Assembly (NCBI RefSeq): GCF_002177135.1
Contig: NZ_MWPH01000001.1
Coordinates: forward strand, 248,001-312,000
DNA from: Natronolimnobius baerhuensis
Lineage (GTDB): Archaea; Halobacteriota; Halobacteria; Halobacteriales; Natrialbaceae
Reading direction: 5' to 3'
DNA: 64,000 nucleotides
The position numbers were made by a program, and so were the translations under genes. Shown here one piece after another: positions 2,606-7,176 of this stretch. The notes under the pieces are model-generated. The model was given only the letters and a program-made list of their open reading frames with translations. It was not told the DNA's origin and searched no databases. Within the stretch, counting starts at the first letter, position 1; each line of letters starts with the position of its first letter.

Positions 2606-4138
2606 GTGGTTGATCCAGAGTTTTGGCGTTTGTTCGCAACAATTTCTGCAACGATGATTGGTCTTGTTTTCTTGGGTACTTTCTATTACTTAGAAGCAGG
2701 GTGGCGAACGTTTGATTATTTCCAATCAGAAATGGAGAGTTTAACACTGAATTATTCAAAGATAATTATCGCGTATTTCTCATCATCTCTGTTGCTTGCA
2801 CTTATGCAACTTCCGTTCTTTTATAACTGGCTGAGTACAGTTGGTCTAGTCATCATCGTGAGCGGAGTATTCTTAACGACCAAGTCACTCAATAGTCAAT
2901 TAGACCGTTTCTCTAATCTTTCACAAGATATTTCGAACATATGGAATAAATGGCTGAATTGGGCATGGTTTTCCATAGTATTCATCGTTCCACTATTGGC
3001 TCTACAAAACTGGTCTGTTGGAATTCCGACTATAAATGGACTTACTGTTGACGAAGAGGTATTCGGTTGGATAATATTTGGCTCTCTCACATTTGGATAT
3101 TGGAATTTAATCATATTTTTGCTCACGCCGTTTCAAATGCATAAAATAGAGAGAGACAAATCCGCAAAAGAGAACAAGAAAAGAAGTAGACAGGGAAAAT
3201 CATCAGCGAATGAAACATGGGACCAAGATCGAATTAACCTTGCAGAGAACAGACTCAAAAGCGAACTTGATGAGAGTGGGTTGTCAATTAGTCCAGATCT
3301 CGATATCATAGAATCACACGCGGAAAATGAAGAACTATCAGGTGATCTTTCTGAACCATATCTTTACGCCCCACCAAGCGTCGATAAAAATGGCGAAGCC
3401 AGTGTCTTTGTCTACCTACCAGATGATTGGGAGTCAGATAGAGATTTGTTAGACCAATCAAGTTATCTGGCTCAAATTACTGGGATTCTTGTCCGAAGTG
3501 CGTATCGAGATCTAACTGGAATTCAAGTTAGAGTTTTTCGCCGTCGTATGGATCCTTGGAAGGACTATTCCACTAACCAAATGTTATTAAAAATTCGGTG
3601 GACAGGAACAAACTTGAGTGATTTAGACACAGTACAATCAGACTCAAAAGAGATACTCAAATCCGCTTCAAATTATTTACTTGATCCCACGCTCTATCCC
3701 CTGGGTCTTAAAGACCATAATTTTGATCTTACTGAAAAGGAACCTGAAGAAGACGAACAATACTCACTCTATACAGTATCAGACAAGAGCCATGCAATGG
3801 CAAAACGTTATTCTTCGAAGGTCGTCATTCAGGAAGGGCTATCAAAAGATCAGATGAAAGAGCTAATTCCCGATATTATTGAGAATATTAGCAAGAAAGA
3901 CGTATACCGAAATGAAAGTACTGAAGATCACTGGAAAGGAAAAAAAGCAGATGTTGTTTGGATCCATCTTTTTAGTGAAGCTCGAAAACCTCCAGAAATG
4001 ATCTGTATTGACCATATGGATCATTATATAGGAAAGGCAGAATGGTTTGCCCCGGATCTTGACCCCAGCTACTCCCCAAGGGAAATGTCTGACCCGAGTG
4101 AAGTTATTGATAATAATATACGAGTTATGTGGAGCTAG
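2606..4138 (+). CDS. AT-rich accessory gene: four-helix membrane protein with large cytosolic domain
   Basis: The product has 510 residues from a GTG start. Four hydrophobic segments lie in the first 180 residues: about 8-30 (LFATISATMIGLVFLGTFYY), 50-70 and 75-95 close together, 115-135 and 155-175. They are followed by a charged linker near 180-220 and a soluble region of about 290 residues with a mixed alpha/beta look. I do not recognise the family. Unlike every neighbour, the gene is AT-rich and rich in Lys, Asn, Ser and Ile, and it lacks CTCGAG words, so recent transfer is likely. It sits between a decayed accessory gene and a tRNA-Tyr scar. A defence or stress-sensing role is possible but unproven. 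Confidence 0.75.
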   Translation: MVDPEFWRLFATISATMIGLVFLGTFYYLEAGWRTFDYFQSEMESLTLNYSKIIIAYFSSSLLLALMQLPFFYNWLSTVGLVIIVSGVFLTTKSLNSQLDRFSNLSQDISNIWNKWLNWAWFSIVFIVPLLALQNWSVGIPTINGLTVDEEVFGWIIFGSLTFGYWNLIIFLLTPFQMHKIERDKSAKENKKRSRQGKSSANETWDQDRINLAENRLKSELDESGLSISPDLDIIESHAENEELSGDLSEPYLYAPPSVDKNGEASVFVYLPDDWESDRDLLDQSSYLAQITGILVRSAYRDLTGIQVRVFRRRMDPWKDYSTNQMLLKIRWTGTNLSDLDTVQSDSKEILKSASNYLLDPTLYPLGLKDHNFDLTEKEPEEDEQYSLYTVSDKSHAMAKRYSSKVVIQEGLSKDQMKELIPDIIENISKKDVYRNESTEDHWKGKKADVVWIHLFSEARKPPEMICIDHMDHYIGKAEWFAPDLDPSYSPREMSDPSEVIDNNIRVMWS

Positions 4139-4594: not shown

Positions 4595-4658
4595 CTCGAG
4601 ATAGCCTTTTGCGCCGACCAGTTGCTCGCTTCGCTCGCGATGTTGGTCGACACAAAAG

Positions 4659-4732
4659 TCCGCCCTCCCCGATTTGAACGGGGGGCAAGTCGATCTACAG
4701 TCGACTGCTCTACCAGTCTGAGCTAAGGGCGG
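4659..4732 (-). tRNA. tRNA-Tyr (anticodon GTA)
   Basis: The 74-nt gene folds as a standard cloverleaf with no intron. The acceptor arms CCGCCCT and AGGGCGG have discriminator A, the D-arm is GCTC/GAGC, the anticodon arms GTCGA/TCGAC hold loop CTGTAGA with anticodon GTA, and the T-arm CCCCG/CGGGG has loop TTCAAAT. The C1-G72 pair is the archaeal and eukaryotic tyrosine identity pair. CCA is not encoded. Its 3' side faces the scar region and AT-rich gene, consistent with past use as an integration target. Confidence 0.97.
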
Positions 4733-4861: not shown

Positions 4862-5605
4862 ATGAGTAAGATCACGTTTCGCGCCGACGATGCCCTCGTC
4901 GAGGACCTCGAGGCGCTCGACCTCTCGAAAAGCGAGGCGATGCGAGAGGCGCTTCGAGCGTATCTCGACGGGCCACACTCGAGCGAGGCCACCAGGTCCA
5001 GCGCCGCGCAGAGTGACGCCGCCGGGGCCAAGGGTGAGCAAGCGCGCACACGTGATCACAAGGCAGTCACCGAGGACACCGCAATCGACGACATCGTTCG
5101 CGAGCGCGTCGACGAGCTAGTTTCGGAGCGACTGACAGCACTTGGGCTCGATCCGACGGACCCGATGAACACGGACTCGCGTGCACACCCACACGAGAAT
5201 GAGTCCCAAGATATCAACGTGACAATCTCGCTTGCGGACCGTGAGCTGAACACGCACCAGCAACGCGACTCACACGCACGGACTCGAGGCGATGTGTCTG
5301 ACACGCACGGTCCATCCGACGAGCACCCAGCTGTCGGACATCGTGTGGACGGTGACCGACAGCAGACCCCGCCACCTCGAGACCACGAACACGACCACAC
5401 CGGCGATACCACACACTCGACGTCGTGTGCACAGTGTGGCGAAACCGTCGACGAAGACCACGTGTACTGTCCGAACTGCGGCGAAAAAGCCGCACATCGG
5501 CTGTTCTGTGAGTGTGGGGATGAATATCGTTCAGACTGGGCGTTCTGTCCGAGCTGTGGGCGTCGGACAGCCTCAGCGGACGTCCTCGAGTCGAATAGTC
5601 GGTAA
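4862..5605 (+). CDS. cdrL: CdrL-like long ribbon-helix-helix protein with C-terminal double zinc ribbon
   Basis: The product has 247 residues from the ATG at 4862 (a GTG at 4844 would add six). Residues 1-40 (MSKITFRADDALVEDLEAL, then SKSEAMREALRAYL) form a MetJ/Arc ribbon-helix-helix DNA-binding domain. About 130 residues of acidic, His-rich low-complexity linker follow. The C-terminus carries cysteine pairs CAQC, CPNC, CEC and CPSC, a double zinc ribbon. It lies directly upstream of cdrS-ftsZ2, as the long cell-division regulator does in other haloarchaea, and is expected to bind that promoter. The symbol rests on domain build and synteny. Confidence 0.75.
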   Translation: MSKITFRADDALVEDLEALDLSKSEAMREALRAYLDGPHSSEATRSSAAQSDAAGAKGEQARTRDHKAVTEDTAIDDIVRERVDELVSERLTALGLDPTDPMNTDSRAHPHENESQDINVTISLADRELNTHQQRDSHARTRGDVSDTHGPSDEHPAVGHRVDGDRQQTPPPRDHEHDHTGDTTHSTSCAQCGETVDEDHVYCPNCGEKAAHRLFCECGDEYRSDWAFCPSCGRRTASADVLESNSR

Positions 5606-5615
5606 TCGTGAGTGT

Positions 5616-5788
5616 TGTAAGACACTGAAAGTCGTGTCCGACGAAAGCTTTATTATTCAGGGCCGTATTCCGTTTACTCGCGTAAGACGGTCGTCTTACA
5701 CCTGCCACGAATGGCCTGAAACCGCCCGATGTCGGGCGGTTCCGGTGTAAGACACGTCGCGTCTGACAGGGGCGCGCCACCGTCTTAC
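5616..5788. promoter_or_regulatory. promoter region of cdrS-ftsZ2 with five TGTAAGAC-type half-sites
   Basis: TGTAAGACAC occurs at 5616-5625 and exactly again at 5746-5755. A perfect palindrome, GTAAGACG-GT-CGTCTTAC, fills 5682-5699, and a further CGTCTTAC lies at 5781-5788. A separate perfect hairpin, ACCGCCCGA/TCGGGCGGT, lies at 5721-5740. A TATA-like TTTATTATT sits near 5649-5657, which would start transcription near 5680, at the palindrome. Ribbon-helix-helix dimers bind short repeated half-sites, so CdrL and/or CdrS are the natural candidates to bind here. That binding is inferred. Confidence 0.6.
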
Positions 5789-5806
5789 CCAACGGGGAAT
5801 ACAACC

Positions 5807-5986
5807 ATGGAGCGTGTGACACTGCGAATTCCGAAACAGCAGATCGAGGAGGTAGAGCAACTGGTCGATTCGGGCGAGTTCCCGAACCGGAGCGAGGCAA
5901 TCCGGTCGGCCGTCCGTGAAATGATTAACGAGGAGTACGACGGACAGACCGACCACTCCCGTCAGCGAAACTGGGCAAAGGTGTAA
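5807..5986 (+). CDS. cdrS: CdrS, short ribbon-helix-helix cell-division regulator
   Basis: The product has 59 residues from the ATG at 5807. An upstream in-frame start at 5729 would add residues that overlap the operator repeats and is unlikely. [19 protein letters not shown] followed by [14 protein letters not shown] is a complete ribbon-helix-helix fold with almost nothing else. In Halobacterium, CdrS controls ftsZ2 and other division genes and is co-transcribed with ftsZ2. Here the stop codon is 2 nt from the ftsZ2 ATG, so co-transcription is near certain. Confidence 0.9.
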
Positions 5987-5988
5987 CG

Positions 5989-7176
5989 ATGCAGGATATC
6001 GTACAAGACGCCCTCGAAAACGCTGAACAGGAAGCCCGAGATATGGATGTCGACATGGACGACGATGAGTTCGGCGATCCACGGATCGTCATCGTCGGCT
6101 GTGGCGGCGCGGGCAACAATACCGTCAATCGATTGTATAACATTGGTGTCGAGGGCGCTGACACCATTGCAATCAACACGGACAAACAGCATCTGAAGAT
6201 GATCGAAGCCGACACGAAGATTCTCGTCGGCAAATCCCTGACCAGCGGACTCGGTGCCGGTGGCGACCCATCGATGGGCGAACGCGCAACCGAGATGGCA
6301 CAGGGAACGATCAAGGAAGTCCTTGGCGATGCGGACCTCGTGTTCGTGACGGCAGGCATGGGTGGCGGAACCGGCACGGGTGCCGCCCCCGTTGTCTCCG
6401 AAATCGCCAAAGAACAGGGCGCAATCGTCGTCGGCATGGTCTCGACGCCGTTTAACGTTGAGCGCGCACGGACCGTCAAGGCCGAGGAAGGCCTCGAGAA
6501 GTTGCGTGAGCAGGCCGACTCGATCATCGTCCTCGACAATAACCGACTGCTCGATTACGTCCCGAACCTCCCGATTGGCAAGGCGTTCTCGGTGATGGAC
6601 CAGATCATCGCCGAAACCGTCAAGGGAATCTCGGAGACGATCACCCAGCCAAGCCTGATCAACCTGGACTACGCGGACATGTCCACGATTATGAATCAGG
6701 GCGGCGTCGCGGTGATGCTCGTCGGCGAGACGCAGGATAAGAACAAGACCGACGAAGTGGTCAAAGACGCGATGAACCACCCGCTGTTGGATGTCGACTA
6801 CCGTGGTGCATCCGGTGGTCTCGTCCACATTACGGGCGGTCCTGACCTCACCCTCAAAGAGGCAGAAGGCATCGCAGACAACATCACGGAGCGCCTCGAG
6901 GCCTCCGCGAACGTCATCTGGGGCGCCCGAATCCAGGAGAACTACAAGGGCAAAGTCCGCGTCATGGCGATCATGACCGGCGTCCAGAGCGCACAGGTAC
7001 TCGGCCCAACGACGCAAAAACAGGCCGACAAATCCCGCGCGAGCATCGAAGGTGTCAAGGATACAGACTTCGACGCAAGCAACAACATCGAAACCAGCAA
7101 CACCGGCTACGGTGCGAAAAGTGATGGCGGCCGCAACGAAGTCGACAAACAGAACGGCGTCGACGTAATCCGGTAA
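5989..7176 (+). CDS. ftsZ2: FtsZ2, tubulin-family cell division GTPase
   Basis: The product has 395 residues. An acidic N-terminal extension (residues 1-30) precedes the GTPase domain with GCGGAGNN at 37-44 and the tubulin signature GGGTGTG at 125-131. The T7 catalytic loop region NLDYADM is at 225-231, and a polar C-terminal tail follows. Archaeal FtsZ2 polymerises at midcell and is needed for constriction, working with FtsZ1 and SepF. The extended N-terminus and linkage to cdrS and ncsA identify the FtsZ2 paralogue. No FtsZ1 gene lies in the window. Confidence 0.97.

Follow-up and report, generated by a model that had tools for sequence, protein, structure and literature searches.

A conserved half-site array at the cdrS-ftsZ2 promoter of Halobacteria as a candidate ribbon-helix-helix operator and mRNA leader fold

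The cdrL-cdrS-ftsZ2 locus

The window analysed here, a stretch of 64,000 nucleotides from the haloarchaeon Natronolimnobius baerhuensis, carries the cell division gene ftsZ2 behind the genes of two regulators, CdrL and CdrS. The same genes in the same order make up the CdrSL network of Hbt. salinarum, for which the available text of Darnell 2020 (PMC7439475) describes a CdrL peak upstream of cdrS-ftsZ2.

4862-5605, + strand: CdrL, with an N-terminal ribbon-helix-helix (RHH) domain (MSKITFRAD) and a C-terminal double zinc ribbon (Pfam DZR)
5807-5986, + strand: CdrS, a 59 aa RHH regulator (NCBIfam NF058555, 120.1 bits vs a cut-off of 100)
5989-7176, + strand: FtsZ2 (Pfam Tubulin and FtsZ_C)

A sequence-only reading of this DNA had proposed that RHH proteins are encoded on both sides of an array of repeated half-sites, and profile comparison agrees. 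CdrS belongs to the RHH (CopG/Arc/MetJ) regulators by its RHH_1 match (4.9e-8) and by the NF058555 equivalog, above cut-off. CdrL alone gave no Pfam RHH match, and its RHH domain was recognized from profile comparison with CdrS (hhalign 92.5%, E 5e-7) and with a NikR chain (E 3e-4); both the CdrS and the CdrL profiles match NikR sequences. An AlphaFold model of CdrL was set aside for its poor confidence (mean pLDDT 58.6). The predicted DNA-reading strand is R3-T5-R7 in CdrS (146/146) and K3-T5-R7 in CdrL (K3 in 125/125), positions 3, 5 and 7 being those that we take to read DNA in the RHH family. Elsewhere in the neighborhood lie a tRNA-Tyr gene (4658-4732, - strand) close upstream of cdrL and a 510-aa open reading frame (2606-4138) with no Pfam match.

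Between the cdrL stop (5605) and the cdrS start (5807), the heptamer GTAAGAC occurs exactly five times (starting at 5617+, 5682+, 5693-, 5747+ and 5782-), and the rest of the 64 kb holds only three further copies. The chance expectation is 4.7 copies per 64 kb, or 0.013 per 175 bp, from which arithmetic gives a probability of about 3e-12 for five copies in 175 bp. The half-sites and the features that accompany them are as follows, the RNA elements being predicted.

5617-5623, + strand: half-site 1, exact; upstream of the TATA element and outside the transcript
5641-5656, + strand: BRE/TATA-like promoter CGAAAGCTTTATTATT, from sequence inspection; at the same position in relatives
5682-5688, + strand: half-site 2, where transcription is expected to begin; forms the 5' side of RNA stem P1
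5682-5788, + strand: structured mRNA leader (P1, P2-H1, H2), followed by a conserved GGGGAAT at 5794-5800
5693-5699, - strand: half-site 3, 11 bp from site 2, with which it forms the palindrome; 5' strand of P2
5720-5741, + strand: hairpin H1 of the RNA, flanked by sites 3 and 4
5747-5753, + strand: half-site 4, pairing in RNA with site 3 (5693-5702 : 5744-5753)
5758-5776, + strand: RNA hairpin H2, containing GTCTGAC at 5761-5767
5782-5788, - strand: half-site 5, 3' strand of P1 (5682-5691 : 5779-5788)

The elements reported from the letters alone are confirmed: two exact copies of TGTAAGACAC (5616-5625 and 5746-5755), a central 8+8 palindrome GTAAGACG-GT-CGTCTTAC (5682-5699) and a further half-site, all within 175 bp. 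The separate hairpin is also present (5720-5741, 10+10 in DNA, 9 bp with a 4-nt loop in RNA), and the distance of about 66-76 bp between the left, centre and right groups is roughly right. Symmetric boxes repeated at about one helical turn, as expected of an RHH operator, are found here with a palindrome spacing of 11 bp. From the position of the BRE/TATA-like element, transcription probably starts near 5679, so that sites 2 and 3 would fall at this start, with 4 and 5 inside the leader; a scan with bacterial promoter and terminator models, ill-suited to archaea, returned nothing. Two boxes of a related type, GTCCGAC (5636-5642, overlapping the BRE-like stretch) and the GTCTGAC inside H2, are possible CdrS feedback sites, and the latter is near-invariant among Natrialbaceae-like leaders.

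Conservation and origin of the array

The earlier proposal was to be refuted if the motif were not conserved upstream of cdrS in relatives, and the motif is conserved: the central palindrome (GTAAGAC-N3..6-GTCTTAC) was found in 374 of 391 genomes of the class, exactly once in 372, while a reversed control pattern was found in 7 genomes of the same scan. Among the 17 genomes without it, three have only weak CdrS matches, so that the locus is possibly absent from those assemblies, and the others carry diverged arrays. Scanning with CdrS yielded 80 named loci from many haloarchaeal genera, nearly all with the array at the same position. Within the window's own 3.9-Mb genome the palindromic 18-mer GTAAGACGGTCGTCTTAC is present as a single copy, with no copy at one mismatch and the nearest others at two.

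Across 148 distinct upstream regions, exact copies number 147 for site 2, 141 for site 3, 112 for site 4 and 144 for site 5, counts in which sites 2 and 3 are slightly favored since 30 source loci were chosen by means of the palindrome. Site 1 is exact, in either orientation, in 109 of these regions, and all five sites are exact in 89; sites 2 and 5 form the most constant pair. The most divergent Halobacteria (loci L087 and L161) have sites 1-3 intact or almost so and do not retain 4-5. The position of site 1 relative to site 2 depends on the clade, most copies being in + orientation at a distance of 65 bp or in - orientation at 52 bp. Since site 1 thus flips and shifts, no fixed helical phase is preserved, and the suggestion that the spacing of the groups allows looping or graded repression loses ground, at least as looping of fixed phase.

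Twenty loci from outgroups in the same phylum contain cdrS-ftsZ2 with no CdrL nearby, and a CdrL profile searched against the whole outgroup genomes gave only weak, zinc-ribbon-type matches. Their cdrS leaders carry GTCAGAC/GTCTGAC boxes, a one-base variant of GTAAGAC, and among boxes with at least 6 of 7 bases matching, 109 of 137 distances are multiples of 11 bp; a distal control region is nearly empty of boxes, and one locus (L182) has, by inspection, nine boxes in register. As these outgroups lack CdrL and still carry boxes of 11-bp period, the predicted tandem RHH-type operator at cdrS is older than CdrL. The ancestral GTCAGAC operator was most likely an autoregulatory site of CdrS, and the array of Halobacteria would derive from this tandem form.

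Candidate readers of the boxes

RHH proteins such as MetJ, NikR and the CopG type bind as dimers to short symmetric boxes, which may form arrays. The candidate operator described here differs from theirs in its GTAAGAC heptamer, its 11-bp spacing, its position at an archaeal start site and its additional use as RNA stems.

In H. volcanii, CdrS ChIP yielded 18 sites, including ftsZ1, dacZ and threonine ammonia-lyase, in a list from which its own cdrS operon is absent (PMC8406309); the accessible portion of Liao 2021 (PMC8406309) gives a symmetric CdrS motif upstream of promoters such as those of ftsZ1 and dacZ. Upstream of ftsZ1, GTCWGAC-N4-GTCWGAC-like boxes adjoin the promoter in most of 30 haloarchaea, and a similar GTCWGAC-type box lies upstream of dacZ in many of them. 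With at most one mismatch, this pattern occurs at 13 places in the window's own genome versus 3 for a control, including dacZ, ftsZ1 and threonine ammonia-lyase, the orthologues of CdrS ChIP targets. The presence of GTCWGAC boxes at orthologues of CdrS targets suggests a CdrS box one base away from GTAAGAC, a comparison limited to those parts of Liao 2021 to which we had access. CdrS-type sites were also seen upstream of methenyl-H4MPT cyclohydrolase (L086) and as three tandem boxes with 11-bp spacing (L261), both in the window's own genome. Exact GTCAGAC-N2..6-GTCTGAC palindromes at DnaK/DnaJ, at TFB ends and elsewhere were not taken as CdrS sites.

ChIP-seq of CdrL in Hbt. salinarum, at promoter resolution, gave the cdrS-ftsZ2 promoter as its sole peak, according to the available text (PMC7439475), and one palindrome per genome fits this single promoter. 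Together, the GTCWGAC boxes at CdrS targets and the lack of a CdrS ChIP site at its own operon point to CdrL as the likely main reader of GTAAGAC in most species, through putative binding. Of the original proposal, the conserved operator-like array upstream of cdrS therefore stands, and its assignment to both proteins gives way to CdrL as the likelier main reader. The competing possibility that CdrS rather than CdrL reads GTAAGAC, an autoregulation like that presumed for the outgroups, draws on boxes older than CdrL, on the invariant reading strand of CdrS and on the persistence of the palindrome in lineages where CdrL is not detectable, but it sits poorly with both ChIP data sets and with the GTCWGAC boxes elsewhere, and we regard it as unlikely though by no means negligible. 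Weighing against the operator model set out below, published transcript levels of ftsZ2 are lower when CdrS is missing, and the deletion strain of CdrL, from which the sign of its action would have to be read, had second-site mutations.

Two lineages (G001 with G007, and G002) retain the palindrome together with site 5 but have no site 1; no CdrL was detected in G001 and G002 by whole-genome profile search, nor beside cdrS in G007. A strict dependence of the palindrome on CdrL was consequently rejected, as CdrL is not its sole reader or cause, and in these genomes the palindrome must be held by CdrS, by another RHH protein or by the RNA fold. These three genomes (loci L274, L275 and L276) contrast with the statement, in the available text of Darnell 2020 (PMC7439475), that CdrL is present in all sequenced Halobacteria. 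In L274, a different palindrome, GTAAACAAACCGTTTAC, lies just upstream of the TATA element, at the would-be position of site 1. The divergent genome G021 (L279) has a second RHH-like open reading frame (154 aa) directly upstream of cdrL, about 1.1 kb before cdrS.

A predicted leader fold and its alternatives

Because sites 2-5 alternate in orientation, the leader is able to pair 2 with 5 and 3 with 4, a fold that the sequence-only reading did not contain. Both pairings are present in the minimum-energy fold of 66 of 70 diverse leaders (94%, phylogeny ignored), and the leader of the window folds at -62.2 kcal/mol. Alternating half-sites by themselves permit such pairing, and the fold could on this account be a by-product of a DNA operator acting alone, a reading favored also by site 1 outside the transcript and by outgroup leaders with no sense-strand bias. 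Against it, shuffling the spacers with the half-sites kept lowers the double fold to 32% and weakens it by about 10 kcal/mol, and both spacers fold better on the sense than on the antisense strand (p 8e-7 and 3e-8, kinship ignored; upstream control p=0.34). The half-site pairs never vary, so that covariation rests on the flanks and hairpins: 3:4 flank pairing exceeds permutation (2.27 vs 1.46 bp, kinship ignored), with no excess for 4:5 flank pairing, and Haloferacales-like leaders show 26 double-change cells versus 10.4 when shuffled (kinship ignored), with 91.7% of cells pairing versus about 40% in slid controls. One clade, moreover, keeps and lengthens the P2 pairing where DNA site 4 has decayed, and we consider an operator without a functional RNA improbable.

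A conserved fold with compensatory changes, as in the structured leaders of Rfam, is thus found here around invariant half-site pairs, although an Rfam search gave no match (best 23 bits vs a gathering score of 50). For sites 4 and 5, the fold would be an explanation no worse than additional protein binding. That the element is riboregulatory alone, with the repeats serving as stems and no operator, might be argued from the leader covariation, from the constancy of sites 2 and 5 and from Haloquadratum-like leaders, which lose sites 3 and 4 together and retain P1, H1 and H2. We hold it to be highly improbable, since site 1 lies upstream of the TATA element, the divergent loci keep sites 1-3 without 4-5, the outgroup boxes follow an 11-bp DNA period and the available ChIP description places CdrL at this promoter (PMC7439475).

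We favor, with a probability of roughly 0.6, an RHH operator that overlaps the transcription start, is read chiefly by CdrL in most Halobacteria and is reused as the stems of a 5' leader. The array, its conservation and uniqueness, the ancestral period and the RNA covariation come from computation and the binding of CdrL to this promoter in Hbt. salinarum from published work, while the sequence contacts, the repression and the RNA effect of this model are inferred. Its core would be the start-site palindrome, two heptamers 11 bp apart with one heptamer per RHH dimer, together with one half-site upstream of the TATA element. Binding at sites 1-3, putatively cooperative, would hinder RNA polymerase or promoter escape and so repress the operon. 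In the transcript, the pairings 2:5 and 3:4 would form around H1 and H2 and yield a compact leader directly before the start region; this leader probably adjusts how well the cdrS-ftsZ2 mRNA is translated or how stable it is. Sites 4 and 5 would persist chiefly because they pair with 3 and 2 in RNA, with a possible second role as weaker sites on DNA. A more tentative version, to which we give somewhat less than even odds, holds that the same heptamers are DNA half-sites and regulatory leader stems across the class, with a split in specificity between CdrS and CdrL that comes down to one residue (R3 to K3) and one base (C to A).

Darnell 2020 (PMC7439475) does not use the word "motif", and the half-sites, their class-wide uniqueness, their ancestral form and the RNA fold come from the present analysis, none of them appearing in the available text of that work. 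The timing of archaeal cell division is poorly understood, and the array gives the cdrS-ftsZ2 operon a defined candidate operator that can be mutated as a single-copy target throughout the class, and offers a way, open to testing, in which CdrS and CdrL could stay apart. In organisms with mostly leaderless mRNAs, it is also evidence that a division operon carries a structured leader RNA. For this operon, mRNA levels and ribosome occupancy have been reported not to match, together with probable post-transcriptional regulation (PMC8303175); the leader fold suggests a reason for this discrepancy, and one sequence may control division both as DNA and as RNA.
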